In this document: positions 1 to 36,103 of the stretch, piece after piece
Position numbering within the stretch: position 1 is the stretch's first letter
Layout of the letters: each line of letters begins with the position of its first letter
IMG/VR virus record: IMGVR_UViG_3300032296_004192
Span: 1-36,103 of that record
Length of the DNA stretch: 36,103 nucleotides
Direction: 5' to 3' (one strand)
Origin: a virus
Notes under the pieces: generated by a model
What the model was told of the DNA's origin: nothing
The model's database searches: none
What the model saw: the letters and a program-made list of their open reading frames with translations, nothing else
Made by a program: the position numbers and the translations under genes

Positions 1-90
1 AGCCCTAATTCCAGCCCTAATCCTGTCCCGATCCAGCCCTAATTCCAGCCCTAATCCTGTCCCGATCCAGCCCTAATTCCAGCCCTAATT
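1..90. repeat. 34-bp tandem repeat, about 2.65 copies
   Basis: Copies at 1-34 and 35-68 are identical, and a third partial copy runs from 69 to about 90. Each unit contains two AGCCCTAAT sub-repeats and one GTCCCGATCC segment. The array touches the window edge, so its true copy number is unknown. It leads directly into the first promoter module. No function is visible. A C-rich remnant of similar flavour lies at 381-410, just before the second promoter module. Confidence 0.9.
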
Positions 91-174
91 TTAACCATAG
101 ATTTTTCTCTATTAAAACCATAAGAAAATCGTTTATTTTTAGGGTTGACAAATTCAATCCCCCTATGGCATAGT
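83..174 (+). promoter_or_regulatory. Promoter module A (78-bp direct repeat with B)
   Basis: A -35 box TTGACA lies at 145-150, with an 18-bp spacer to CATAGT at 169-174. Upstream sit a small inverted repeat, ATAGA then TCTAT around a T-rich loop, and two AACCATA direct repeats. The segment 83-160 recurs without gaps at 407-484, with about seven differences by eye. A conserved -35 box plus conserved upstream repeats looks like an operator-promoter unit. It would transcribe the small membrane peptide at 234. Confidence 0.6.
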
Positions 175-233
175 GAGTACATGGTTACAATCCGCTTCAC
201 AAAAAACCAAAAAATTTAAAAGACAAAAAAACA

Positions 234-365
234 ATGCTAAAAAATATCATCATCGCTTACGCCGCCATTGTTACAATAGCCACCTCCGCGTTAGTTGTTG
301 CTGCGGTAGTTGAATTAAATACACCAAATCAAGCTACAGCGCAAATATTGAACCTGGTTAAATAA
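234..365 (+). CDS. Small single-span membrane peptide (43 aa)
   Basis: The frame runs from ATG 234 to TAA 363-365. Residues 5-27 are almost entirely hydrophobic or small (I, A, V, T, L), which reads as one transmembrane helix or an uncleaved signal sequence, followed by a short polar tail ending LNLVK. It sits between promoter modules A and B and has no partner in its transcript. No good ribosome-binding site precedes it; the upstream bases are only an A-run. No family is recognised. Short phage membrane peptides can be holin-like or exclusion proteins, but nothing here decides that. It may not be expressed. Confidence 0.4.
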   Translation: MLKNIIIAYAAIVTIATSALVVAAVVELNTPNQATAQILNLVK

Positions 366-406
366 TCAATCGGTTAGATCCCAGTCCCAACCACAACCCA
401 ACCCAA

Positions 407-498
407 CCCTAATTTTAACCATAGATTTTTTTCTATCTTAACCATAAGAAAATCGTTTAATCTTAGGGTTGACAAATTCAATCCCACAATGATACATT
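407..498 (+). promoter_or_regulatory. Promoter module B (second copy)
   Basis: This is the second copy of the 78-bp module, offset by 324 bp from copy A. TTGACA lies at 469-474, with an 18-bp spacer to TACATT at 493-498. The ATAGA/TCTAT inverted repeat and both AACCATA repeats are kept. It lies 60 bp upstream of the dnaN fragment and would drive it. Two copies in tandem suggest one regulator controls both short transcripts. The ribbon-helix-helix-like product encoded just downstream is a natural but unproven candidate. Confidence 0.6.
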
Positions 499-557
499 AT
501 TTACATAAGGCAAAAACAGCACCTCATAAATTTTGCCATAAAAATTAGGAGTTTATC

Positions 558-746
558 ATGCAAGTAACAGTATCTACATCTCAGTTAAAAACCGCGATCG
601 CTACAGCATCCAAAGCAATATCAAAATGTCCATCCTACCCAATATTAACCAACTTCCTATTCACTATCATAGATGGCTTCCTCGTTATATCTGCATCCGA
701 TTTAAATACCTATTTCAGTATAAAACATCAGCCGCCAACGGGTTAG
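558..746 (+). pseudogene. dnaN: Truncated DNA polymerase III beta-clamp N-terminus
   Basis: The 62-aa frame starts at ATG 558 after GGAGTTTATC. It reads like the first half of beta-clamp domain I: an opening strand (MQVTVSTSQL), a helix (KTAIATASKAISK), the P-x-x-P-I-L-x-N signature (CPSYPILTN) and a strand ending in SASDLNTYFSIK. A normal DnaN is about 370 aa, so about 85 percent is missing, and the homology stops abruptly around residue 58. Its promoter is module B. It is either a decayed mobile-element clamp or a short decoy peptide. I favour decay, because the downstream gene also lacks its start and one deletion would explain both. Family call is from motif reading only. Confidence 0.65.
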
Positions 747-990
747 CATCGTACTCAAAGAGGCAGGCATAGACTTAAGATTGAAAGGCGGAAACCTCAA
801 AGCCCGCCCCAAACCCGCACCGAGGGCAGACAACACCACCTACAAGTTATCCCAGACCACGACCCGCATCAGGCTACCCCAAGCGGTAGATGATGCCCTC
901 GCCCAAATGCCCACGTCCGCAGCCCGCACAACGTGGCTAAGAAAAGTAATAGCCGAAGCGGCTATTGAAGAATTCGGGATCACTCTTTAA
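724..990 (+). pseudogene. 5'-truncated small RHH-like DNA-binding protein
   Basis: The frame is open from 724 to the stop at 988-990, but no ATG or GTG occurs in it. The only conventional start is TTG 781, which falls inside a conserved-looking stretch (KEAGIDLRLKGGNLKARP) that continues upstream of it. The first part resembles the short fold seen in TubC-type N-terminal domains. The C-terminal part, TTRIRLPQAVDDALAQMP and on, has the strand-helix-helix pattern of ribbon-helix-helix DNA-binding proteins. It overlaps the end of the dnaN fragment in another frame. The likely history is a deletion near 735-750 that joined the front of dnaN to the back of this gene. A functional TTG-started 69-aa product at 781-990, translationally coupled to the upstream fragment, is still possible. 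Confidence 0.5.
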
Positions 991-1010
991 TAGCCGCCGT
1001 CAGAACGCAC

Positions 1011-1037
1011 AAAAAGCCAGGGAAAACCCTGGTTTTT
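1011..1037 (+). terminator. Intrinsic terminator before the late operon
   Basis: CCAGGG (1017-1022), an AAAA loop and CCCTGG (1027-1032) form a perfect 6-bp GC-rich stem. It is followed by TTTTT and preceded by AAAAA, so it could work in both directions. It isolates the short left-edge transcripts from the head-gene operon starting at 1080. Confidence 0.85.
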
Positions 1038-1042
1038 CTGTT

Positions 1043-1080
1043 TAATAGTATATACTTACTGTAGTAATTAAATACTATTA
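1043..1080 (+). promoter_or_regulatory. Inverted repeat overlapping the portal start codon
   Basis: TAATAGTAT at 1043-1051 is perfectly complementary to ATACTATTA at 1072-1080, whose last base is the A of the portal ATG. No Shine-Dalgarno sequence lies in the 20 bases before the ATG. In RNA the stem would hide the start; in DNA it could be an operator. It is the only regulatory-looking element between the terminator and the structural operon. Confidence 0.5.
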
Positions 1081-7444: not shown

Positions 7445-10400
7445 ATGGCTAACCGACAACTATCCGTCAAGTTTGACACCGAAGGATTTCAGGCTGCTAT
7501 CAATCAAATGCAAGCCATAGGAAAAGCATTTGACGTAGTTCTCGCCAACGCTCAAAATAATATCAAGATAGCCAAGAGAGAGATAGCCGCAGCAAGCAAC
7601 AACGGCAGCATCGAACAAATGGCAGAAGCCCAGAAGCTTCTCGAGCAAAATACTAAAATTGCCAACCGAGCGATCGCCGCATCCTACCGAGAGCTAGGCA
7701 TCAAATCCAGCGAATCCCTAAATAACCTCAGAGCGCAAGCCGTATCAGCATTTGAAGCCATTAAAATCAGTGGCACAGCCACAGCCCTAGACATAGGCAG
7801 AGCGCAAGATGCCCTGAACAACAAACTAAAACAACTCGAAGCCCAACTAAATAGCCAGAACGTCAACGCCTATAAAACATTAGGGGTTCAGTCCAGGGCG
7901 GAACTAATGGAAGCCCGCCAACAAATCATGGACGCTTACCAAACCCTCAAACAGGGCGCGGATAGCAGTAGGCAATCCCAACAGGAACTAGGATTAGCCT
8001 ATAGATCAATGGTGGATAAAGTAGCTGCCATTAACAAACAGCTAAACCAGTCCGTCGCCTCCAATGATTTAGATGCAGCTTACAAACTACTGGGAGTCCG
8101 CTCCAGGGCTGACCTACAAGCAGCAGAATTTGAGATTATCAAAGCCTACGAAACCATTCGCGATGCCAAAAAAATAGGCAGTGAAGATGAGCTTGCCGCA
8201 CGTAAAGCGATGGACTCCCAGCTTAACGCCATCAACGGGGTATCCGAGGCATACAAATTATTGGGAATGCGTAGCCGGGAGCAACTTCTAGCAGCCCGAA
8301 CAGAACTAGATACAGCCTGGACTACCCTGTCAACCAAAATTAAAACTAGCGGACAAGATTTAGCTGTCGCCTATGACAACTACCTCGCCAAGATCAGGGA
8401 AATAGATCAGGAACTCAACCGCAGCGCAGCCCAACGACAGCTAAACAACGCCTATCAAGCCTTGGGTGTGCGCTCCGAAGCCGAACTACAGAAAGCCAGG
8501 GACGAGATCATCAAATCCTACGAGATGATCCGCAACGCATCCAAGCCCGGCAGTCGGGACGAAGCCGCCGCATTAGCAGCAATGAAGTCTCGTACCAAGG
8601 CAATAGATTCTGAATTGGGAATCAAAGATCCAGTCGCAGAATTAAGTGGAGCTTACCGTTCATTGGGCTTTCGCTCTGAAGCTGATTTAAGGAAAGCGGA
8701 ACAGGATATCAGGGCAGCCTACGACCTCATCGCCAAGTCAGGCACAGCTTCTCAAAGAGATATCAGACTAGCCGCCGAAACCCTACAGCAGAAACTCAAA
8801 GAAATCAACCAAGAATTAAATAAAGCCTCATCAAAAAATCAAGAAGTAGAAGGCGCTTACCGAGTCTTGGGCGTTCGTACCAGGGATGAACTCTTAAAAG
8901 CTAGAGATGAAATAGTTCAAGCCTGGATGACCATATCTACAACCGGAAAACAATCAATCCGTGATATGGACTTGGCTTATGAAGCAATGCAGTCCAAACT
9001 CAAACAGATTGATAACGAGATTGCCAAGACTGCCCAGACAGAGAGACTTGATAACGCCTATAGATTGTTGGGTGTTCGTTCCCAGTCCGAACTGCAAAAA
9101 GCCAGGGACGAGATCATCAAATCCTACGAGATGATCCGCAACGCCTCCAAGCCCGGTAGTCGGGACGAAGCCGCAGCCCTGGCAGCAATGCAATCTCGTA
9201 CCAAAGCAATAGATTCTGAATTGGGAATCAAAGACCCCACCAAACAACTAGGAGATGCCTATAAATCACTAGGGTTTCGTTCTGAAGCTGAAATCAAAAA
9301 AGCCATCAAAGAAATCGCCGATGCCTACGACTTCATTAGAAAGTCCGGCGTTGCCTCTCAAAGAGATATTGAGATGGCTACGGATGCACTGCAAAGGAAA
9401 GTTAAACAACTCGCCAACGAACTTAAATCAGTCCAGGAACGAGGGGTTAGCGATGCCTATAAACTCCTTGGTGTCCGCTCCGAGGCAGATTTAAACCAAG
9501 CAATTCAGGAGATAGAGCGGGCATTCCAGACCATTGCCAATAGCAAATCTAGATCGGATAGCGACATTGTTCGGGCTGAAGAGGCCATGCTGTCAAAGGT
9601 CAAGCAACTGCGAGCGGAAATTGCCCGCACAGGTACACCACCCACAAACATTAACGATGCCTACAAACTCCTTGGTGTCCGCTCCGAGGCAGACATCAAC
9701 AAAGCCAAAACCGATATCAGAAATGCCTTCAACGAGATCCAGCAAGCAGGATCAAAGCGAGATATTGCCGTTGCTCAAGATGCCCTATCCGCCAAACTTA
9801 AACAACTCGATGCAGAACTAGCCGGAACAACAGCCAAGACAAACATCTTCAAAACCAGCGTCGAAAATTTAGCCAATGCCATTAGGTTGCAACTTACATT
9901 CGCCCTTAGCGGACTCCTGCTTTCTATCCCCGCCAATATCGGATCAGCCATCACCGGATTTACTAAATTTGAGGATCAAATCAAAGCCTTAAAAGCCGTA
10001 TCCGGCGGTACGCAGGGAGAGATCGCAGCCATTCGGGGGGAAATAGAGCGACTGGGCATGACCACCAGCAAAACCCCAGAGGATGTAGCTAGATTATCCG
10101 TCGAACTAGCTCGCGCCGGTTACAGTGCCAGCGAAATTACTTCGGCACTCAATGGCATGGTCAAGGCATCAGAGGCCGCAGGTGAGGATTTAACCCAAGT
10201 AGGTAGAATTATCACCGGAGTCCTCAAAGCCTACAGCCTACCAGCGTCCGAGTCTGGAAGAATCGCCGATCTGCTTACCCAAACCGCCAACAAAGCGGCT
10301 GTATCTGTAACAGACCTTGGGGAGTCCTTAAAGTACGTCGGTACTACCGCAGCAGGAAGTAATCAAAGAGTTGAGGATGTCCTGGTAGTCTTGGGGTTGA

Positions 10401-28442: not shown

Positions 28443-28491
28443 AAATCCGTGATAGAGTTGGATTACCACACCACAACTGAATCACGGATTT
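28443..28491. promoter_or_regulatory. 11-bp inverted repeat before rep
   Basis: AAATCCGTGAT (28443-28453) and ATCACGGATTT (28481-28491) are perfect 11-bp arms around 27 bases, ending eight bases before ATG 28500. The alternative GTG start 28449 lies inside the first arm. The position suits autoregulation of Rep or a translational hairpin. Confidence 0.6.
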
Positions 28492-28499
28492 CTTTTGCC

Positions 28500-29438
28500 A
28501 TGACCGATATTTCGGCTGCGGCGAATATTTCTAATACTCCTAGTTTAACTGATTTATCCCAAAGGGACAAGCCCTGGGATAAACATCGTTCTAATGCAGA
28601 TAAAGTATCAACTTATTATGCAGGTAGTGAGTTTCAGGATTATTCGGCTCGGATTAATGACTGTTCTGAATTGTTAGATTTCCGTCTTGTACCAGATGCA
28701 GACGAGGGATTGATGAAGTTGAAATTAAATGCAGCTAGGTTTTGTAGAGTTAGACATTGCCCTGTTTGTCAGTGGCGGCGTAGTCTCATGTGGAAAGCAA
28801 AAGCTTATAAAATTCTTCCTAGAATTGTTATTGAGTATCCTACTTACCGTTGGTTGTTTTTGACTTTGACTGTGCGTAACTGCAAAATTACAGAGTTACG
28901 TAAAACATTAGATTGGATGCACGAATCATTTAAGCGGTTGACAAAGCTTAAAGATTTTCCTGCATTGGGATGGTTAAAGTCTACTGAAGTCACTAGGGGT
29001 AAAGATGGTTCTGCTCATCCTCACTTTCATTGCTTGCTCCTGGTGAAGCCTAGTTATTTTGGCAAGAATTATCTAAAGCAAGCTGATTGGGTTGAATTGT
29101 GGAAGCGATCGCTACGGATTGATTACAACCCAGTTTTAGATGTTCAGGCACTTAAGAAGGGTAAAAGCCCATCAGACTTAGTTCCTGAGTTGCTTAAATA
29201 CTGTACCAAGGAATCTGATTTAACGGCGGATCGAGAATGGTTTTTGGAATTGACCCGACAGCTTCATAAAGCGCGAACTATTGCTACTGGTGGAGTGCTT
29301 AAAGATTTTTTGAAGGATTTAGAAAGTGAACCAGATGATCTAATTGGCAAGGATGACGAAGGCGAGGAATTGGTTGATGAAGGGCATTTGTATTTTGGAT
29401 GGAAGCGTATGGAGAAAAAATATAGGTTGGTGGAATAA
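28500..29438 (+). CDS. rep: Rolling-circle replication initiator (Rep_1 family)
   Basis: With ATG 28500 the product is 312 aa; GTG 28449 would give 329 aa but starts within a hairpin arm. HUH-endonuclease motifs are clear: FLTLTVRN (about residues 120-127), the metal-binding HPHFH (173-177) and catalytic Tyr234 in KYCTKESD with Lys237. A Cys cluster FCRVRHCPVCQWRR (about 82-95) is the zinc-like feature of pUB110/pC194-type Reps. The protein would nick the double-strand origin, stay covalently bound and start rolling-circle replication. A Rep_1 gene beside a complete tail operon is uncommon and suggests an extrachromosomal, plasmid-like stage. Confidence 0.9.
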   Translation: MTDISAAANISNTPSLTDLSQRDKPWDKHRSNADKVSTYYAGSEFQDYSARINDCSELLDFRLVPDADEGLMKLKLNAARFCRVRHCPVCQWRRSLMWKAKAYKILPRIVIEYPTYRWLFLTLTVRNCKITELRKTLDWMHESFKRLTKLKDFPALGWLKSTEVTRGKDGSAHPHFHCLLLVKPSYFGKNYLKQADWVELWKRSLRIDYNPVLDVQALKKGKSPSDLVPELLKYCTKESDLTADREWFLELTRQLHKARTIATGGVLKDFLKDLESEPDDLIGKDDEGEELVDEGHLYFGWKRMEKKYRLVE

Positions 29439-29525
29439 TAGTGAACTACTTCGTAGATTACTATAAAATATGGTAGAATAAGAGTGAACTATAAAGTAGT
29501 CTACTAATTGCTGTTTGACTACTTT
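29433..29525 (+). promoter_or_regulatory. Repeat cluster, operator-like, before 29564
   Basis: GAATAATAGTGAACTA (29433-29448) recurs with one change at 29476-29491, 43 bases apart. Then AAAGTAGTC (29493-29501) pairs with GACTACTTT (29517-29525), a perfect 9-bp inverted repeat. TTGACT at 29515-29520 overlaps it. Direct plus inverted repeats just after rep and before a small basic protein suggest a regulator-binding or iteron region. Confidence 0.45.
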
Positions 29526-29563
29526 GTATTTTAATTGAAAACGTCACAAAATCAGAGGTAGTT

Positions 29564-29863
29564 ATGGTTAGAGGTGGTGCAAGATTAAATGCAGGTGCTA
29601 AAGCTAAGTGGAAGCATGGTAAAACTAAGACAATACGAGTACCCGAAGTTTTAGTAGATCAGGTTATTGACTATGCAAAAAAGTTAGATGATCAACAAGT
29701 TTCTGTATTTTCTGAGTCTTCTAAGGTTTTAAATCTTTCTGGAATATCTGTTTATATGCTTAGTGGAAAAAAGTTTGTTTATGTATCAGATTTGATTAAA
29801 CTAGGATATGACATAAAACCACATAGATTAGCTATAGCTGTTTCTATGGAGTCTAAGGGTTAG
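29564..29863 (+). CDS. Small basic DNA-binding-like plasmid protein (99 aa)
   Basis: ATG 29564 follows AGAGG. The start MVRGGARLNAGAKAKWKHG and TKTIRVPEVLVDQVIDYAKKLD fit a small cyanobacterial plasmid family in which a Gly/Arg-rich AP2-hook-like start precedes a strand-helix segment; such proteins are often near partition or replication genes. The second half (VYMLSGKKFVYVSDLIKLGYD) is less recognisable. It is probably a copy-control or DNA-binding regulator acting on the repeats upstream of it, by position alone. Confidence 0.6.
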   Translation: MVRGGARLNAGAKAKWKHGKTKTIRVPEVLVDQVIDYAKKLDDQQVSVFSESSKVLNLSGISVYMLSGKKFVYVSDLIKLGYDIKPHRLAIAVSMESKG

Positions 29864-29903
29864 CAATATTACTGTTTTGAATTTGTTACGATATCATAGA
29901 GGG

Positions 29904-29969
29904 GTGCGGGCCGATTTTGCTATTTTTTCTTTCAAATCTTTATATAGTAAGGGTTAAACCGTGCGGGCC
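29904..29969. repeat. Short direct repeat GTGCGGGCC
   Basis: GTGCGGGCC occurs at 29904-29912 and 29961-29969, 57 bases apart, both followed by T-rich sequence. They lie just upstream of the recombinase stub and could be arm-type sites or scars of an integration or deletion. This stretch has no convincing gene. Confidence 0.4.
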
Positions 29970-30050
29970 TGTTTTTATTTTTGGGGTAAATTATGTCTAG
30001 TCTCATTCCTTTTTCGGGTGATGGTTTTCTTGGTTTTGGTACTTTCCCTG

Positions 30051-30218
30051 ATGGTACGCCATGCCTACTGCATAAGATTAGCCACAGAATACAAAATCCC
30101 GGTCGCGATCGCTGCCAATTGGGCAGGTCACGAACCGGGAACTTATTTAAAAATTTATCAAAAATGGATTGGGGAAGCCGAAAAACGTAGAGTGTTTGAG
30201 GAAAGCCAATCTCGTTAA
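30051..30218 (+). pseudogene. 3' stub of a tyrosine recombinase (integrase)
   Basis: In the frame ending at 30216-30218, VRHAYCIRLATEYKIPVAIA is the box II R-H-x-x-x-x-R-L motif, followed by NWAGHEPGTYLKIYQKWI with the conserved Gly-His and the nucleophile Tyr within KIYQKW. That is only the last 50 or so residues of an enzyme normally 300-400 aa; the N-terminal and first catalytic parts (including the first Arg) are absent. Upstream codons are unrelated, so homology starts near 30051. The stop lies four bases from the convergent gene at 30215. The element has lost integration by its own recombinase, or the stub was left by a rearrangement. Confidence 0.8.
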
Positions 30219-31225
30219 TTCGCTACAGCAACAGCCGGATGCAGTGCCAACTCATCCCGAACCTTCAATAGTTCTAAGTCAGTACACTGCGTCCCATCCT
30301 CCTTCCCTGTAAATCTGAACATTATTTCTTTTACCGCCTCTGCATCAAGATTTTTCCTTTTCCGTAAAGAATTTATTTCTTGAGCCAGCAACTCCCTATC
30401 AGTTTGAGGTTGGGGAATAGATGGCATAGGAGGATCTATTACTGGCTGTGGTGTAGCTCTCACCGATATCTCCGACTCAATAGCCCCAACCACCGCGTCG
30501 TACTTAGTCCGGGGAATTTTCTTGTTGCTATCCACACCAGCAACGTTTTTAACAATATTCCTGGTGACTTCCTGTGGTAACGGCTTGGCGATCGCCCACA
30601 ACCTATTGACCTGCTTCTCGGAAATTAAGTTTTCAGGTTGTGGGCTAGGTTGTGGGCTAGGTTGTGGCGCATCCAGTCTAGGCATGACCACATTAGAATT
30701 AACGGGAGGCAATTCCCCTTTACCTCTAAGATAATCCCCCAAGGACTTGAGCTTATTTCTGGTCTCATAATCGAGTTTCACAGCATTACTATTCAAGTAA
30801 TGCGCCACAGTCCCTTGATCATCTAAGTACCTCCCCACGCCCCAAGCCTCACAGGCATTTTTAAAAGCCTCAGCAGCCAACCTATCAGCCGCACTCCCAC
30901 GACTAACGTCCTTACCATTCCTTTCAGCAGCCACCAAAGGCACTGAACCAATCGCCTGCTTGCTAATACCTAAAATTGTAATTGTGCATTTGCAGATTAC
31001 ATCAGAGGCAATCTGTTCAATGTGTGTGTAGCTTGATTCCCATTCAGGACAAACCTCGTCTAATCTTTCTCTATAGTCATGGTGAGCAACAAATGCCCAG
31101 TACCCGCGGCCGGGCAGTTCCCTAATCCCATGAGATTCAGGGGGGAACGGTTTTCTTAACTCAGACTGAATCCGCTTTAGTTCAAAACTCGAACTCTCTC
31201 TACAAATTTGGTTTACGGGTTTCAT
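30215..31225 (-). CDS. Rad52/Rad22-like single-strand annealing protein
   Basis: ATG 31225 follows AAGGAGATGGGAAA, a good ribosome-binding site, and overlaps the previous stop. The N-terminal half has the Rad52-like annealase layout: IQSELRKPFPPESHGIRELPG, a WAFVAHHDYRERLDEVCP segment, and AADRLAAEAFKNACEAWGVGRYL, which is diagnostic of phage Rad52/DdrA-type SSAPs. A Pro-Gln repeat (QPSPQPSPQPEN) links to a C-terminal helical region (ISEKQVNRLWAIAKPL) often found on such proteins. It would promote annealing during phage or plasmid recombination. No partner exonuclease gene is adjacent, though the 613-aa ATPase two genes upstream in this operon carries a nuclease-like domain. Confidence 0.85.
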   Translation of the reverse strand: MKPVNQICRESSSFELKRIQSELRKPFPPESHGIRELPGRGYWAFVAHHDYRERLDEVCPEWESSYTHIEQIASDVICKCTITILGISKQAIGSVPLVAAERNGKDVSRGSAADRLAAEAFKNACEAWGVGRYLDDQGTVAHYLNSNAVKLDYETRNKLKSLGDYLRGKGELPPVNSNVVMPRLDAPQPSPQPSPQPENLISEKQVNRLWAIAKPLPQEVTRNIVKNVAGVDSNKKIPRTKYDAVVGAIESEISVRATPQPVIDPPMPSIPQPQTDRELLAQEINSLRKRKNLDAEAVKEIMFRFTGKEDGTQCTDLELLKVRDELALHPAVAVAN

Positions 31226-31449
31226 TTTCCCATCTCCTTAACAACTCTCTCGACATCTTGTGTGGTTAATGCTATTCCGGGTTTTAGTCGGTATGTTACC
31301 GAAATATTAAGTCCGCCTTCAATACTTTCCTTAACCATGTAGCCTAGCGAAACCATGTAGCCGGTAATTAACCAGTGCTTCGACTTGTGAATTCTTTCCG
31401 CCACAGCTTTGCGGAAAGAATTATAATTTTTGAAAACTTTAACTTTCAT
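31222..31449 (-). CDS. Unknown 75-aa protein
   Basis: ATG 31449 lies two bases after the ATPase stop and the gene overlaps the annealase start by four bases, so it is coupled between them. Sequence is basic and helical at first (FKNYNSFRKAVAERIHKSKH), then LITGYMVSLGYMV and a C-terminal helix with basic residues. It could be a small DNA-binding partner of the annealase. Nothing identifies it. Confidence 0.6.
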   Translation of the reverse strand: MKVKVFKNYNSFRKAVAERIHKSKHWLITGYMVSLGYMVKESIEGGLNISVTYRLKPGIALTTQDVERVVKEMGK

Positions 31450-31451
31450 CT

Positions 31452-33293
31452 TTATTCAATAAATAAACATCCGATTCTTTGATCCTGTGCAACCATCGAG
31501 GCGGTCGTCCTCGCTTGTGCTTGATCTCCTTCATTGCTTGGCAAAAAACCAATAGCGAGAAGTTTATATTCATTACCAATGCCATAGAGATGTAATTGCC
31601 CAGCCGCTTGGTAAATGGTGCCCCTGGTGAGATACTTCTTGATTTCGATGATTGTCCCGCCATCAAAATCAGTGACGATATCTACAAAGCCGCCATTGCA
31701 CTTAACCTCTAATTCTGCTTTGTAACCATACTGAATAAGTCGAGAGGCGATCGCCTTTTGCAAATCTTCCTCTCGCCACTTATCCGGCAATCTAAAATTG
31801 CCGGTAATCGTTGACCATGTAACTTCATTCTCATTCGCGTCTGTCAACTCTAAATTATTTTTGAGAAGTACCAGAGCTTCATGGGTTAATGATACTCCTG
31901 TCACTTGTTGCCAGGCTTGAATCAGTTCAGAATCGGTAGGATTTCTGCCAAGCTGACTTATCCACGTTCTTATTATTTGGTAGGGATTTGGATTGTCATG
32001 TTGAGTCACTTCCGATGATTCCGGCGACTCAACATCAAAACTAAATTTACTCAAATCAAGAAACGGAATAACCTCAACCTTTGCCATTTCTCCTAACTTG
32101 CGAACCACACAGGCAAACCCCTGAGACTTCTTGAGAGTGCGCTGCAATTCCATCTGTTCTTGAAGTAATCTCTTGGCTTCAAAATCAGCCGGAAATTTAG
32201 TATTAGGATCTGCCAACGCCGAGCCTAAACATAAAACATCCATCTGAAAAAGAACGGAACTATCAACACCAATTCTCTCTTTTTTGAGGGAGTGCATACC
32301 CAATGTAATATTGATTAAATATTTCCGTCCCTCGTCTTGAGTTTGGGCAATAATATTCATGACTTCTGCCTTTTCGGTATCAGTCAATCCCATGACAAAC
32401 CCCTCAAATTCATCACAAATTAATTTGAAAGGTTGACATTCCTGGTGATTTTGTTTAATTCCTTTCTCAATTCTGTAGTCCAATAATTGCTTGGCACGGC
32501 GGAACATCTTCAGGATTTGATCTGGCTTCTTAGCGACAAATTGATTTAGCAAAACATCAGTTGGCACACCTGGCAGCCATTGTGATTCATCCTCATCAAA
32601 ATGCTTATCCCCAATCCTTAACTCCCCATCGGGAAAGTGAGTGAGGAATGCGATCGCTTCATAAGCTAGATACACCGACTTACCGCTTCCTTTCGGTCCG
32701 AATACAGCTTTCGAGGCATTGATAAATTTTGCATCCATCCAGGCATGATCAACTGCCACAGCCAAATCATCGGATATTTGTTCAAAAGTAGATTGATTGG
32801 GGTTAAAACTTCCCTTGAGTGCGGGAGGTTGTTGCACTGCTGGCTGTTCAATCACGGCTTGCTGGATTTGTGGCAACTCCACCAACCCATGCAATCCATA
32901 TTGCTGCATCCATCGGCCGCGCTCCTCCACTGGCAAGCGATTAATTCGAGCCGCTAACTCCCGCTTGGAATTTATTTCTTGAGCAGCTTTTTCATAGGTG
33001 AAAGTTCCTCTTAGTTGTTCATTTACTATTTGGAAATTCGCTTCCTCTATAGCTTGATAGGTTTTCTCCTTCCTTTGTCGGCGATAACATTCCGCCGTAA
33101 AGCAAAGGGATGAAGTCAAACCCCATATATTTTCGATTAGTTTGACTTCCTTAATTTGACTTGGGAAAAGAATAGGCAGGGTAGTTCCAATAACTGCGGT
33201 CGCACCAAGCAACCCCAGTAAAATCCTTTCAGAAGTTATTAATGGTTCAAAGCATTTTTTCTCCCTTGCGAATGGATTCGGCGATTCCAACAT
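31452..33293 (-). CDS. Membrane-anchored P-loop ATPase with PD-(D/E)XK-like nuclease domain
   Basis: The 613-aa protein has hydrophobic segments at about residues 24-45 and 53-67, suggesting an N-terminal membrane hairpin, then a long charged helical region (70-150). The motor has Walker A GPKGSGKS (199-206) and Walker B LICDEFEG (D294, E295), like FtsK/HerA/VirD4-type translocases. Residues about 508-585 fold like a PD-(D/E)XK nuclease: Glu526 or Glu528, Asp538 in FVDIV, E550-x-K552 in IIEIKK, then Gln566 in AAGQLHLYG. ATPase plus C-terminal nuclease recalls phage terminases, but the membrane anchor points to DNA pumping across the envelope. AGGGGGATAATGAA precedes the start. Confidence 0.85.
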   Translation of the reverse strand: MLESPNPFAREKKCFEPLITSERILLGLLGATAVIGTTLPILFPSQIKEVKLIENIWGLTSSLCFTAECYRRQRKEKTYQAIEEANFQIVNEQLRGTFTYEKAAQEINSKRELAARINRLPVEERGRWMQQYGLHGLVELPQIQQAVIEQPAVQQPPALKGSFNPNQSTFEQISDDLAVAVDHAWMDAKFINASKAVFGPKGSGKSVYLAYEAIAFLTHFPDGELRIGDKHFDEDESQWLPGVPTDVLLNQFVAKKPDQILKMFRRAKQLLDYRIEKGIKQNHQECQPFKLICDEFEGFVMGLTDTEKAEVMNIIAQTQDEGRKYLINITLGMHSLKKERIGVDSSVLFQMDVLCLGSALADPNTKFPADFEAKRLLQEQMELQRTLKKSQGFACVVRKLGEMAKVEVIPFLDLSKFSFDVESPESSEVTQHDNPNPYQIIRTWISQLGRNPTDSELIQAWQQVTGVSLTHEALVLLKNNLELTDANENEVTWSTITGNFRLPDKWREEDLQKAIASRLIQYGYKAELEVKCNGGFVDIVTDFDGGTIIEIKKYLTRGTIYQAAGQLHLYGIGNEYKLLAIGFLPSNEGDQAQARTTASMVAQDQRIGCLFIE

Positions 33294-33297
33294 TTCA

Positions 33298-33693
33298 TTA
33301 TCCCCCTACAATTATTCCAATACTTAGTGCAACAGTGGCCGCCGTTCCAAAAACATAGATAGGGGCAAATCCTACAATGGATTGGTTTCTGGACAGATGC
33401 CCGTTGGTCTGATACCAAAGTCCGCACCAATTGGAGAAGCCCATAGCTACAATTACTAAAAAGCTAACAATGAATAGGGCGATCGCGCCATTCCGAGACT
33501 CAGGAAAGCCCTTGATAATTTGTCCCAGAAGCAGGAAGAAAGAGAATCCAGATACACAGTATCCAGTATAAAGTAGGTTTTTCATCTTCTCATCGTTGTA
33601 TAGCAGAACAGCCCAACCAACTTTATTAAAAAAAGAAATAGGGTATTGTCGGCTTCGGAGTTGCGTTTGAAGATCATTTAAAAATCTCCGCAC
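33298..33693 (-). CDS. Membrane protein, three to four spans (131 aa)
   Basis: The start used is GTG 33693, overlapping the preceding stop by 20 bases; a later ATG near 33585 gives a shorter form beginning at MKNLLYTGYC. Hydrophobic stretches at about residues 43-60, 70-88 and 107-130 predict three helices. It ends four bases before the ATPase start, so it is a probable membrane partner of that protein. No family is recognised. Confidence 0.65.
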   Translation of the reverse strand: MRRFLNDLQTQLRSRQYPISFFNKVGWAVLLYNDEKMKNLLYTGYCVSGFSFFLLLGQIIKGFPESRNGAIALFIVSFLVIVAMGFSNWCGLWYQTNGHLSRNQSIVGFAPIYVFGTAATVALSIGIIVGG

Positions 33694-34105
33694 TCATTTG
33701 ATAGGCTTCCACATAGCCATCTGTATATGCTTGAGTAGTAGCTGCGCCGAGGGCATATTTAGAAATCGCTTGCTGATGCCCAGCTTCTAATTCTCGAAGC
33801 TTTTGATCAGCTTTCATTGTGATAGTTGCCCAGTCAGTATTTTTCTTGTGAAGATCAATCGCTTTATTCAATAGCTTCTCTTGACTCGAAATAATATGAC
33901 TAGCTAATTCCAATTCGCCGTCAACTTGTCCCATTTCCTTCTCCAAATTTAATACTTGCTGTGCCGAAATTTCGGTTGGTAACTTCATTTTTGCAGTTAT
34001 GCGGGCTTTGGAATTGCCCAAGTTACCGATAGCAGTGGCATCCTGTCCACTGCCAGCTAATTTAGTCGTCTTACCGGCAGATAGTCCCTTGACGAAATTC
34101 TCCAT
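33674..34105 (-). CDS. Coiled-coil protein (143 aa)
   Basis: ATG 34105 has AGGAG some 11 bases upstream and overlaps the previous gene by 35 bases. Residues about 45-120 are helical with heptad-like charged and aliphatic positions (LNLEKEMGQVDGELELASHI; KADQKLRELEAGHQQAISKY). No membrane segment. It may link the membrane proteins and the ATPase in one complex. Function unknown. Confidence 0.6.
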   Translation of the reverse strand: MENFVKGLSAGKTTKLAGSGQDATAIGNLGNSKARITAKMKLPTEISAQQVLNLEKEMGQVDGELELASHIISSQEKLLNKAIDLHKKNTDWATITMKADQKLRELEAGHQQAISKYALGAATTQAYTDGYVEAYQMSAEIFK

Positions 34106-34445
34106 TATTAATTCTCTCCTGCGGTTGTTCTTTGTTATTCAATGAAATAAAAAGGCAGATAATACTAACTAGGATTGATGAGCCTAAAACACCAAGAGAC
34201 AGCAGATCAATATTTTTTGCTTGTTTAGTTATCTCTAATTCCTGTCTCCTGGCGGCGGCTCGATTGTAGTCAGTAGCGGTTATTATTTGCCGAATGACAT
34301 TATCATCCGGTACACCTTTAAAGTTGAATTCGCCATTTGGTTTAACTTTAAATTCAATCGGCTCACCACTGGGTTTGACGGTAAACTCTACCGGGTTCTT
34401 GATAGTCGTTTCCTCCCACAGGTCTGGGAGGTTGTGATGCTGCAT
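34071..34445 (-). CDS. Single-span membrane protein (124 aa)
   Basis: ATG 34445 has AGGAG nine bases upstream, inside the coding frame of the short gene before it. The N-terminal half is polar with two similar phrases (VEFTVKPSGEPIEFKVKPNG), a helix follows, and residues about 81-102 (LLSLGVLGSSILVSIICLFISL) form one transmembrane helix. The C-terminus overlaps the coiled-coil gene. Orientation would put the long polar N-terminus on one face of the membrane. Unknown family. Confidence 0.65.
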   Translation of the reverse strand: MQHHNLPDLWEETTIKNPVEFTVKPSGEPIEFKVKPNGEFNFKGVPDDNVIRQIITATDYNRAAARRQELEITKQAKNIDLLSLGVLGSSILVSIICLFISLNNKEQPQERINNGEFRQGTICR

Positions 34446-34497
34446 AGAAGAATGCTCCTGTTAATACAAAACACTGAATAAATACGGCGGCAACCAT
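34363..34497 (-). CDS. Possible 44-aa single-span membrane peptide
   Basis: ATG 34497 lies within a 16-bp palindrome. The frame extends upstream to 34590 but that part overlaps the 34511 gene. Residues 1-20 (MVAAVFIQCFVLTGAFFYAA) form a clear membrane helix, followed by a Pro/Gly/Arg-rich tail. It overlaps the start of the 34445 gene. No strong ribosome-binding site was found, so it could be spurious; the hydrophobic start and its place in a membrane gene cluster favour it. Confidence 0.4.
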   Translation of the reverse strand: MVAAVFIQCFVLTGAFFYAASQPPRPVGGNDYQEPGRVYRQTQW

Positions 34498-34509
34498 CCA
34501 ATTGGATGG
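34494..34509. promoter_or_regulatory. 16-bp palindrome CCATCCAATTGGATGG
   Basis: A perfect palindrome directly after the stop of the 34511 gene and overlapping the next ATG. It can be a dimeric protein-binding site or a short hairpin that covers the start codon at 34497. Confidence 0.6.
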
Positions 34510-34510
34510 T

Positions 34511-35047
34511 CTAATTATTGACGATATCTGCAAAAGCTTCGTCGAAGATTGATCCAATTTGTCCACGAAACGTCGCGGATTCATTAGCATATTCTTGAAG
34601 ACCAGCAGATACTTTGGAAACGATGTTCGGTGAAATTTGTTTATAACGGTTTACAATCCTCGCCGCCGCAGCATCTTCAACTTCAGACGATTTTCTATCT
34701 GACATCTCATACATTGCCTCGGACTCACTGGCAACCGCAGCGCGGAGATTTTGGACTGCAATTTTTAAGTTTTCAACGCCTTGATTATTATTAGTTGTCG
34801 CTGGCGTGTTTTTCTTGCCTTTCTTATTAGGCACAGTAGCCAGTCCGCCGGCCTCATTATTTTCAGGAACAGCCAAACCAGAAGATGCAGCAGTATCAAT
34901 TTCACCTGCTATAAATTGGGCGTTCGCTTCATCTAAAGTGGCTAAATCAATGCCATAAGCCTCCGCGATTTCTTGAGCTTTTGTCCAGACTTGTTCTAGG
35001 GACAAATCTGATTTTACAAACTGTTTGATATATTCATCTAGGTTCAC
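34511..35047 (-). CDS. Soluble helical protein (178 aa)
   Basis: GTG 35047 is preceded by GGAGGTAAAC, a strong ribosome-binding site. The first 50 residues (IKQFVKSDLSLEQVWTKAQEIAEAYG) are helical; an Ala/Asn/Lys-rich linker (NKKGKKNTPATTNNNQG) separates a second long helical region (LKIAVQNLRAAVASESEA). No membrane segment. Its start overlaps the 49-aa gene upstream by 14 bases. It reads like a scaffold or adaptor of the cluster. Unknown family. Confidence 0.65.
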   Translation of the reverse strand: MNLDEYIKQFVKSDLSLEQVWTKAQEIAEAYGIDLATLDEANAQFIAGEIDTAASSGLAVPENNEAGGLATVPNKKGKKNTPATTNNNQGVENLKIAVQNLRAAVASESEAMYEMSDRKSSEVEDAAAARIVNRYKQISPNIVSKVSAGLQEYANESATFRGQIGSIFDEAFADIVNN

Positions 35048-35183
35048 GTTTACCTCCTAATTTTTCGATTTCCTTCCGAGCTTTTGCAGTGAATACGAGC
35101 AGACCGGGTTTTGTTGTCCACTCGCTATAACTTCCGTCTAGTTCATGTTGCCGGACGGTAATAATAATTTCAAGATTGTTCAT
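35034..35183 (-). CDS. Tiny protein, 49 aa, coupled to neighbours
   Basis: The frame from ATG 35183 reads MNNLEIIITVRQHELDGSYS, then an EWTTKPGLLVFTAKARKEIE segment and a basic end. Its ATG overlaps the stop of the 37-aa frame before it (ATGA), and its 3' end holds the ribosome-binding site of the next gene. A chain of overlaps argues for real translation. The sequence looks like a short beta-hairpin plus helix. Confidence 0.5.
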   Translation of the reverse strand: MNNLEIIITVRQHELDGSYSEWTTKPGLLVFTAKARKEIEKLGGKREPR

Positions 35184-35293
35184 TTAATCCGTACCCTACT
35201 AACGCCATCCGACTCCAAGGCTTCTCGAATTATTCTTGTTTTACTTTTTTGCATGGTTTTTTGTCTAAGTCCCGCTATTTCAAATGGTGTCAT
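35180..35293 (-). CDS. Tiny basic peptide, 37 aa
   Basis: The frame from ATG 35293 reads MTPFEIAGLRQKTMQKSKTR, then IIREALESDGVSRVRIK and stops in an ATGA overlap with the 49-aa gene. It is basic and mostly helical. The ribosome-binding site is weak. Support comes from the overlap and from filling the gap after the SAP gene. Confidence 0.4.
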   Translation of the reverse strand: MTPFEIAGLRQKTMQKSKTRIIREALESDGVSRVRIK

Positions 35294-35318
35294 TGCGACG
35301 TAAGGAAGCAATCTCAAA

Positions 35319-36062
35319 TTAACAGAAAGAAAATATCCGACTTGAGCCACGCTCACAGCAAATCGCGCTCAATAAAGACGGAATATCCGCATAATCATCA
35401 CCCAAATACTTCCATCGCAAATAGCCACGCTTCGCAGTATGAGCAAATACAAAAGTCAGAAATTTACCATCCCTAAAAACTTCATAGCACCGCTGCATAG
35501 AAGTTTCCTTTTCCTCTCTAAAAGTGAAGCCTTCTACCGCGTACTGCCTACCCTCACAAATCACCCAAGGGGAATTAATATCTTCCTGAGTATCCGAAGT
35601 TTCAGAATGTACTATTAAATCCTGCAAATCTTGCTCTAACTCATCAGCACCACAGAAACTGCAATCAATAAATTCTTCCATCTCTGCTTGGGACTCCCCC
35701 CAAATTGCCAAAGAATTAAAATCACACTGCTCATATTCATTGATTACGTTGTAACGCTTCTTCAACCAATTCAAAAAACGTAAATAGACAGAATCTCTAG
35801 CCACTTCCACGCCATTTACCTTAGCCACCCAAGGCTCATGGGCATCACCATCATTGATAATGATTGCGTCCAACTTGGCTTCGGCTTCGGCTTCTACTTG
35901 AATTTCTTCTTCACTTACTGGCTGAGGCATCTTTTCCAAAATTGCCTCATACAATTTTTCCAGCTTTGCAAATCGGTGTATCCCCAACTGGTCACATATC
36001 GCCCACAGTTCAGGGCGTTTCATGTCTTCGAGTTCTTGACGGGTGTAGATTGGATAAGTCAT
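35319..36062 (-). CDS. SAP-domain protein (247 aa)
   Basis: Residues about 7-45 (YTRQELEDMKRPELWAICDQ, then LGIHRFAKLEKLYEAIL) match a SAP motif, a short helix-extension-helix that binds AT-rich DNA and appears in phage and plasmid proteins. An acidic stretch (EEEIQVEAEAEAKLDA) follows, then an unrecognised C-terminal region with a CSFCG pair (DCSFCGADE) and many aromatic residues. It would open the minus-strand cluster, with AAAGGTATAGCC before the ATG. It could bring DNA to the ATPase complex. The C-terminus is unknown. Confidence 0.75.
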   Translation of the reverse strand: MTYPIYTRQELEDMKRPELWAICDQLGIHRFAKLEKLYEAILEKMPQPVSEEEIQVEAEAEAKLDAIIINDGDAHEPWVAKVNGVEVARDSVYLRFLNWLKKRYNVINEYEQCDFNSLAIWGESQAEMEEFIDCSFCGADELEQDLQDLIVHSETSDTQEDINSPWVICEGRQYAVEGFTFREEKETSMQRCYEVFRDGKFLTFVFAHTAKRGYLRWKYLGDDYADIPSLLSAICCERGSSRIFSFC

Positions 36063-36103
36063 AATCAGGCTATACCTTTTCTATTGTGATTGGGTTAAAG
36101 GGC

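Follow-up and report, generated by a model that had tools for sequence, protein, structure and literature searches.

A six-gene module with a membrane-anchored, predicted FtsK/HerA-type ATPase in phages and plasmids of filamentous cyanobacteria

What might a phage gain from an operon in which a membrane-anchored ATPase with a nuclease-like C-terminus is encoded beside several small membrane proteins? This question is raised by the minus-strand gene cluster at positions 30215-36062 of the IMG/VR virus record IMGVR_UViG_3300032296_004192, whose 36,103 nucleotides are the whole stretch of DNA analysed here (hereafter, the window). The plus strand of this 36.1-kb record encodes a lambda-type portal, an HK97-type capsid and a long tail module; since the record is classed as linear, the genome may be incomplete. 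An earlier note, made from the sequence of the window, had interpreted the cluster as a possible DNA-transfer or packaging system of a rolling-circle phage-plasmid. Every open reading frame (ORF) described in that note was found in place: a 247-aa protein labelled SAP-like, two tiny frames of 58 and 49 aa overlapping by 4 bp, hel178, tm75, tm124, cc143, a 131-aa ORF (tm131), the 613-aa ATPase, a 75-aa protein and a 336-aa Rad52-like annealase. Features mentioned below lie on the minus strand unless otherwise indicated.

Comparison with homologues gathered from named phages and plasmids, IMG/VR and genomes revealed that part of this cluster is a conserved core module of six genes, hel178, tm75, tm124, cc143, tm95 and the ATPase gene, encoding, besides the membrane-anchored ATPase, two soluble and three small membrane proteins. 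The order hel, tm75, tm124, cc, tm95, ATPase was the same in four lineages, namely the window with CL131 and the IMG/VR sipho-like contigs L019-L032, the Leptolyngbya phage Lbo402-yong5, the A-1(L)-type phages of Nostoc, Anabaena and Dolichospermum (whose small proteins are much diverged), and plasmids of Nostoc and Halotia. The gene order of the operon recurs in dozens of contigs, far above chance, and a scan with an ATPase profile centred on A-1(L) retrieved no additional homologues. The view of the earlier note that the operon constitutes one set holds for this six-gene core, as the same small membrane genes lie beside the ATPase gene in other cyanobacterial phages and plasmids; it does not extend to the SAP-like, Rad52-like and Rep genes, which are not conserved neighbours. 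The operon genes are under purifying selection, with ratios of non-synonymous to synonymous substitutions (dN/dS), calculated between the window and its sister contig L002, of 0.083 for the ATPase, 0.076 for cc143, 0.08 for tm95, 0.154 for orf49, 0.18 for tm124 and 0.42 for hel178, and within 0.15-0.19 for orf75. Some existing records already give a name to the ATPase ('DNA translocase FTSK', phrog_38189); no description was found, in the literature searched, of the six-gene module, of its overlap layout, of its occurrence on both phages and plasmids or of its restricted range of hosts.

The first gene of the core, hel178 (34511-35047), encodes a soluble, predicted mostly helical protein. It is followed by tm75 (34363-34590), encoding a protein with one transmembrane (TM) segment, which overlaps the 3′ end of hel and the 5′ end of tm124 in all four lineages (80 and 83 bp, respectively, in the window, 86 and 83 in A-1(L), 74 and 89 in yong5, and 65 and 134 in pNPM1). 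The counterpart of tm75 in the Nostoc and Halotia plasmids is a one-TM ORF that starts with GTG, overlaps the genes on either side and lacks annotation (L018:5036-5299, L033:6531-6794 and L010:6646-6906); it is unannotated in pNPM1 as well. The product of tm124 (34071-34445) carries the N-terminal motif VKPxGEFxxxG and one TM helix, and its hhalign match to a plasmid family (E 1.9e-5) supports homology with the plasmid protein. The soluble helical protein cc143 (33674-34105) stands out by its low dN/dS and its occurrence, being the most widely shared small partner, in phages and Nostoc plasmids. Synteny, TM prediction and dN/dS define tm95 (33298-33585), a conserved 95-aa two-TM protein adjoining the ATPase. 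The 131-aa ORF, which extends to 33693, consists of tm95, with a probable start at 33585, fused in frame to a remnant (33586-33693) corresponding to the N-terminal ~33 residues encoded by a 160-aa three-TM gene; relatives L002, L019 and L023 retain both tm95 and the intact 160-aa gene. The small membrane proteins singled out in the earlier note are thus present and conserved, with the 131-aa ORF to be read as this fusion.

Alignment by hhalign of the small proteins of the window with the A-1(L) set gave weak values (0.0025 for tm124, 0.01 for cc143 and 0.01 for hel) and no match for tm95. Because of these weak E-values, the equivalence of the A-1(L) small proteins rests mainly on gene order, overlaps and TM pattern; it is further supported by contig L032, whose hel slot holds an A-1(L)-type protein.

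The ATPase gene (31452-33293) encodes a 613-aa protein that is predicted, from phage and plasmid homologues, structure models and fold matches, to be a membrane-anchored member of the FtsK/HerA superfamily. Its layout comprises a TM hairpin and helical N-terminus (residues 1-150), a RecA-like motor (~170-420), a three-helix domain (437-480) and a putative PD-(D/E)XK nuclease domain (~505-613). The N-terminal hydrophobic segments, the Walker motifs and the residues D538/E550-x-K552/Q566 that had been pointed out previously were all confirmed in the sequence. Walker A (GPKGSGKS) occupies residues 199-206 and Walker B (CDEFEG) residues 293-298, and both the GxxxSGK[ST] pattern and the DE pair are conserved across family alignments A1, A7 and A10. 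Hydropathy and structure models depict the N-terminus as a hydrophobic hairpin, with two long helices. The N-terminal ~150 residues, in which the hairpin is followed by the motif LPxxERxRWxxxYxLxGLV, are common to phages and plasmids, and so is the three-helix domain, which was modelled confidently.

The motor core of the window ATPase, which is diverged, came out poorly in the structure model, probably due to a core swapped relative to that of its relatives. The fold was taken from an AlphaFold2 model of homologue L021, of moderate confidence (mean predicted local distance difference test value, pLDDT, 58.8). The L021 motor matched FtsK motor domains (Foldseek E 2.6e-4 to 1e-3), and its VIA Z scores were 12.5 with EssC, 11.5 with EccC, 11.1 with the conjugation coupling protein TcpA, 10.6 with FtsK on double-stranded DNA, 10.4 with VirB4 and 9.9 with HerA-NurA. 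These matches place the motor in the FtsK/HerA superfamily as a prediction at the fold level. The best structural matches, TcpA of the Clostridium plasmid pCW3 and EccC/EssC, are also membrane-anchored and FtsK-like; unlike the module ATPase, they have a different domain layout and act with conjugation or type VII secretion partners that were not seen here. At the level of sequence the family is that of phrog_38189 (E 1.9e-54), with cyanophage homologues annotated as 'DNA translocase FTSK' or 'DNA translocase coupling protein', only the ATPase being named there. Membership in the TraB/FtsK_SpoIIIE family, when tested by sequence, came out negative: FtsK_SpoIIIE had no match in the window ATPase at E<=1 and matched homologue L011 below the cut-off (E 0.079). 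A profile search of solved structures with the ATPase family gave weak matches only (best E 0.044).

Between the window and L021, the ATPases are 77% identical over their N-terminal 150 residues and similarly close in the three-helix domain (78%) and the nuclease domain (79%), with 24% identity in the motor; comparison with phage Elbi gave 39% in the motor and 25% in the N-terminus. The window motor (32034-32783) looks A-1(L)-like, and the N- and C-terminal domains resemble the CL131/L021 types. This difference in identity pattern between the motor and the ends indicates that the motor was exchanged with both ends retained. In L023 (9508-10017), and also in L027 and L029, an ATPase-like ORF of ~169 aa with the P-loop GEFGIGKSA lies immediately before the full ATPase gene and looks like a truncated paralogue.

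The C-terminal domain (residues ~505-613, encoded at 31455-31781) folds, in its structure model, as a PD-(D/E)XK nuclease with the topology alpha-beta-beta-beta-alpha-beta and the D...ExK arrangement. The model matched EndoMS with Z 10.1 and a root-mean-square deviation of 2.7 Å over 98 residues, and AF1548 with Z 8.9; PF08011 matched below its cut-off only. The nuclease-like character proposed for this domain was thus borne out by the fold match, and D538, E550, K552 and Q566 are retained in every complete copy compared, including the D538 and K552 positions whose conservation had been suggested as a check. The majority of ATPase homologues stop before this domain. From this distribution in the sequences, the nuclease appears to be an optional accessory, present in a minority of homologues and therefore not central to the mechanism. 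On the Nostoc plasmid pNSMS102 (L009:5495-8594), the nuclease domain forms a protein of its own, which has a hydrophobic segment at its C-terminus and keeps the catalytic residues; it is encoded two genes past an FtsK/SpoIIIE-domain gene, from which a BRO gene separates it.

The named hosts of module carriers are all filamentous cyanobacteria (Nostoc/Anabaena, Aphanizomenon, Dolichospermum, Leptolyngbya, Halotia and Oscillatoria). The N-terminal domain of the ATPase was detected in 36 of 218 Nostoc-family genomes and, phylum-wide, in two of 386, both of the Nostoc family. None of the 294 records in the phage collection with a match to a T4-type cyanophage protein (231 Synechococcus, 10 Prochlorococcus, 49 labelled 'Cyanophage' and four Methylophilales) was among the nine ATPase-bearing phages.

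Filamentous cyanobacteria serve as a model for multicellularity in bacteria, and their septal junctions are known to pass small molecules. The reading that we favour, tentatively, is that the module could be a membrane-anchored, FtsK/HerA-type translocation system moving DNA of the element across membranes or septa, the transfer of DNA being itself what we infer. The N-terminal hairpin would hold an ATPase ring at the inner membrane, and the small proteins would build or gate a pore, or a tether, around it. Contact with the DNA of the element would be made by the three-helix domain, joined in some members by the nuclease, which would be an optional addition for DNA processing, and ATP hydrolysis would drive double-stranded DNA across or along the membrane. 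The likeliest use of such a system would be to carry copies of the element through the septum to the adjoining cell of the filament, as TraB does with Spd proteins. In the mycelium-forming host of Streptomyces plasmids pIJ101 and pSVH1, the FtsK-like TraB is accompanied by three to six Spd proteins, which are small and diverse (PMC4170104). Like that system, the module combines a membrane-associated FtsK-like motor with small, poorly conserved partners, some of them integral membrane proteins, in a filamentous multicellular host; the N-terminal membrane anchor together with tm75, tm124 and tm95 makes the similarity one of layout and not of sequence. Unlike it, the module has cyanobacterial hosts, is carried by tailed phages as well as plasmids, has an optional nuclease, is not tied to rolling-circle replication, and has no detected sequence relation to TraB/Spd. 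We thus regard the module as analogous to TraB/Spd in working principle and not as a member of that group. Cyanobacterial septal nanopores are 15-20 nm wide (PMC6463045), which would leave room for a DNA-conducting structure.

Within the same reading, the module may be a phage and plasmid 'movement' machine that pumps naked double-stranded DNA genomes via septa into adjacent cells, allowing infection or plasmid colonisation to extend along the filament without virions or conjugation pili; this is possible, if on the unlikely side. The same low expectation applies to the likeness drawn with plant-virus movement proteins, of which such a machine would be a prokaryotic counterpart. If these elements do push DNA across membranes or septa, the understanding of how phages infect bloom-forming Nostocales, and of how plasmids spread in them, would change, and DNA passage between filament cells would become a directly testable question. 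Even if its use differs, a six-gene membrane module that recurs in unrelated phage types and on large plasmids calls for an explanation.

Several observations weigh against transfer across membranes or septa. The restriction to filamentous hosts is confounded with Nostocales ancestry, from which it is inseparable in these data. Six of the 15 carrier plasmids are typed as conjugative, so that an alternative transfer route exists on some of them. As for the motor, the L021 model is of moderate confidence, the Pfam FtsK/HerA models match the ATPase family below cut-off only, and other RecA-like folds come near in score (Z 10.7 for RAD51-type proteins and 9.6 for KaiC), for which reason the motor was assigned to the superfamily and not to a member family. 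Regarding the DNA-recognition feature at the C-terminus of TraB-type proteins, the three-helix domain 437-480 was seen, but no clt/TRS-like repeat array was found near the operon (29400-36103) of this incomplete genome.

Two rival explanations are live. Management of the genome of the element inside the cell, by membrane anchoring, partition or dimer resolution and with no cell-to-cell transfer, is consistent with the FtsK-like fold of the motor, with the presence of the module on large plasmids and with its position amid replication genes, as the A-1(L)-type phages carry it among helicase, polymerase and primase genes and not structural genes, and the window has Rad52 and Rep genes nearby. 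We consider it rather unlikely, given that partition would be of little use to lytic phages, that five conserved partners are more than known FtsK-type aids have, and that the bias towards filamentous hosts would be left unexplained. The other is a membrane-tethered defence or superinfection exclusion system, in which the ATPase would capture incoming phage or plasmid DNA and the nuclease, where present, would cut it. Phages and plasmids often carry defence or exclusion systems, and known defence systems include some with HerA-type ATPases and nucleases. The module resembles these, including HerA-NurA, in linking a HerA-like motor to a nuclease, whose motif is intact in all complete copies, and the stand-alone nuclease of pNSMS102 is encoded near another FtsK/SpoIIIE gene. 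However, the nuclease is missing from most homologues, with no other effector seen; the ATPase is membrane-anchored, its PD-(D/E)XK domain is closest to EndoMS, three small membrane proteins are unusual for known HerA defence, and the taxonomic range is very narrow. PADLOC gave no match for the window proteins, and weak P-loop matches to HerA/mads_8 for homologues. Altogether, a defensive role seems unlikely.

The fold matches to TcpA and VirB4, and the typing of some carrier plasmids as conjugative MPF_T, would suit a coupling protein of a conventional type IV secretion or conjugation system. This is very unlikely, since half or more of the typed carrier plasmids are non-mobilizable, no relaxase or type IV secretion gene was annotated in the phage regions read, and the gene order is common to phages. 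The least expected possibility, which we regard as highly improbable, is a packaging motor acting in place of a terminase. The succession of ATPase and nuclease is indeed that of phage large terminases (TerL), and no TerL was found in the window, either by PF05876 or as a PHROG terminase among the ORFs scanned, or in the near-identical contigs G003 and G004; for the window this says little, because the window is a linear fragment. On the other hand, the module ATPase has an FtsK/HerA-type motor and a membrane anchor, most homologues lack the nuclease, and plasmids also carry the module. The ATPase showed no match to TerL families, and terminases were not among the fold matches listed, which is not evidence of absence. 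Terminase_6N (PF03237) was above cut-off in at least 9 of the 22 phage records with the ATPase, one of them G001, in which the ATPase shares 96% identity with that of the window, and TerL has been published for A-1/N-1, CL131 and YongM (PMC4916379, PMC6293099, PMC11356776). None of the 32 proteins listed for the YongM virion by liquid chromatography-tandem mass spectrometry maps to the module region at 47.7-51.4 kb (PMC8875764). Since many carriers encode their own terminase and this virion proteome contains no module protein, packaging was rejected. Of the two functions that had been proposed for the cluster, transfer thus stays plausible, given the FtsK-like motor, the small membrane proteins and the filamentous named hosts, and packaging does not.

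No terminase gene lies beside the portal in the window (1-1080) or in L077 (1-2414), and the same is true of G003 and G004, although a GpA-type TerL was present in eight of nine portal relatives tested. The TerL of the window lineage may be relocated, outside the fragment or absent.

The genes flanking the module show a different distribution. On the plus strand, the window encodes a Rep_1 rolling-circle initiator (28449-29438; PF01446, 3.6e-88), which was found in none of the 25 other module-bearing records tested, and the proposed link of the module to rolling-circle replication was therefore discarded. The sole viral relative found of this Rep_1 (64%) is in the 109-kb IMG/VR record L194 (G589), which has two copies and lacks the ATPase gene. 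The 336-aa Rad52/Erf-like single-strand annealing protein (30215-31225; PF04098 6.1e-6, phrog_1097 7.2e-7) exceeds the Pfam cut-off (26.7 vs 20.3 bits), in agreement with its earlier identification as an annealase, and has no homologue in the other fetched loci. The 247-aa protein (35319-36062) matches, in its N-terminus, gp103 of CL131, a protein encoded after the ATPase in that phage; it gave no Pfam family at E<=1, so that the SAP label rests on inspection by eye. Neither of these two genes was retained as a module member. Upstream of hel178, the tiny gene orf49 (35034-35183) is conserved in most sipho-like phage carriers, and the coupled orf58 (35180-35356) is weakly conserved by locus comparison (L002 and L022). 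The small orf75 (31222-31449), located after the ATPase gene, is common only to the two closest contigs, G001 and G002.

Repeats were also observed in the remainder of the window. Short AGCCCTAATTCC/CCTGTCCCGATCC repeats occupy its left end (1-100), and a segment of ~89 bp is duplicated at 79-167 and 403-491, upstream of small ORFs; further copies are present in L077. The tape-measure gene contains, at 8447-9705, internal repeats of ~317 bp with 78% identity.

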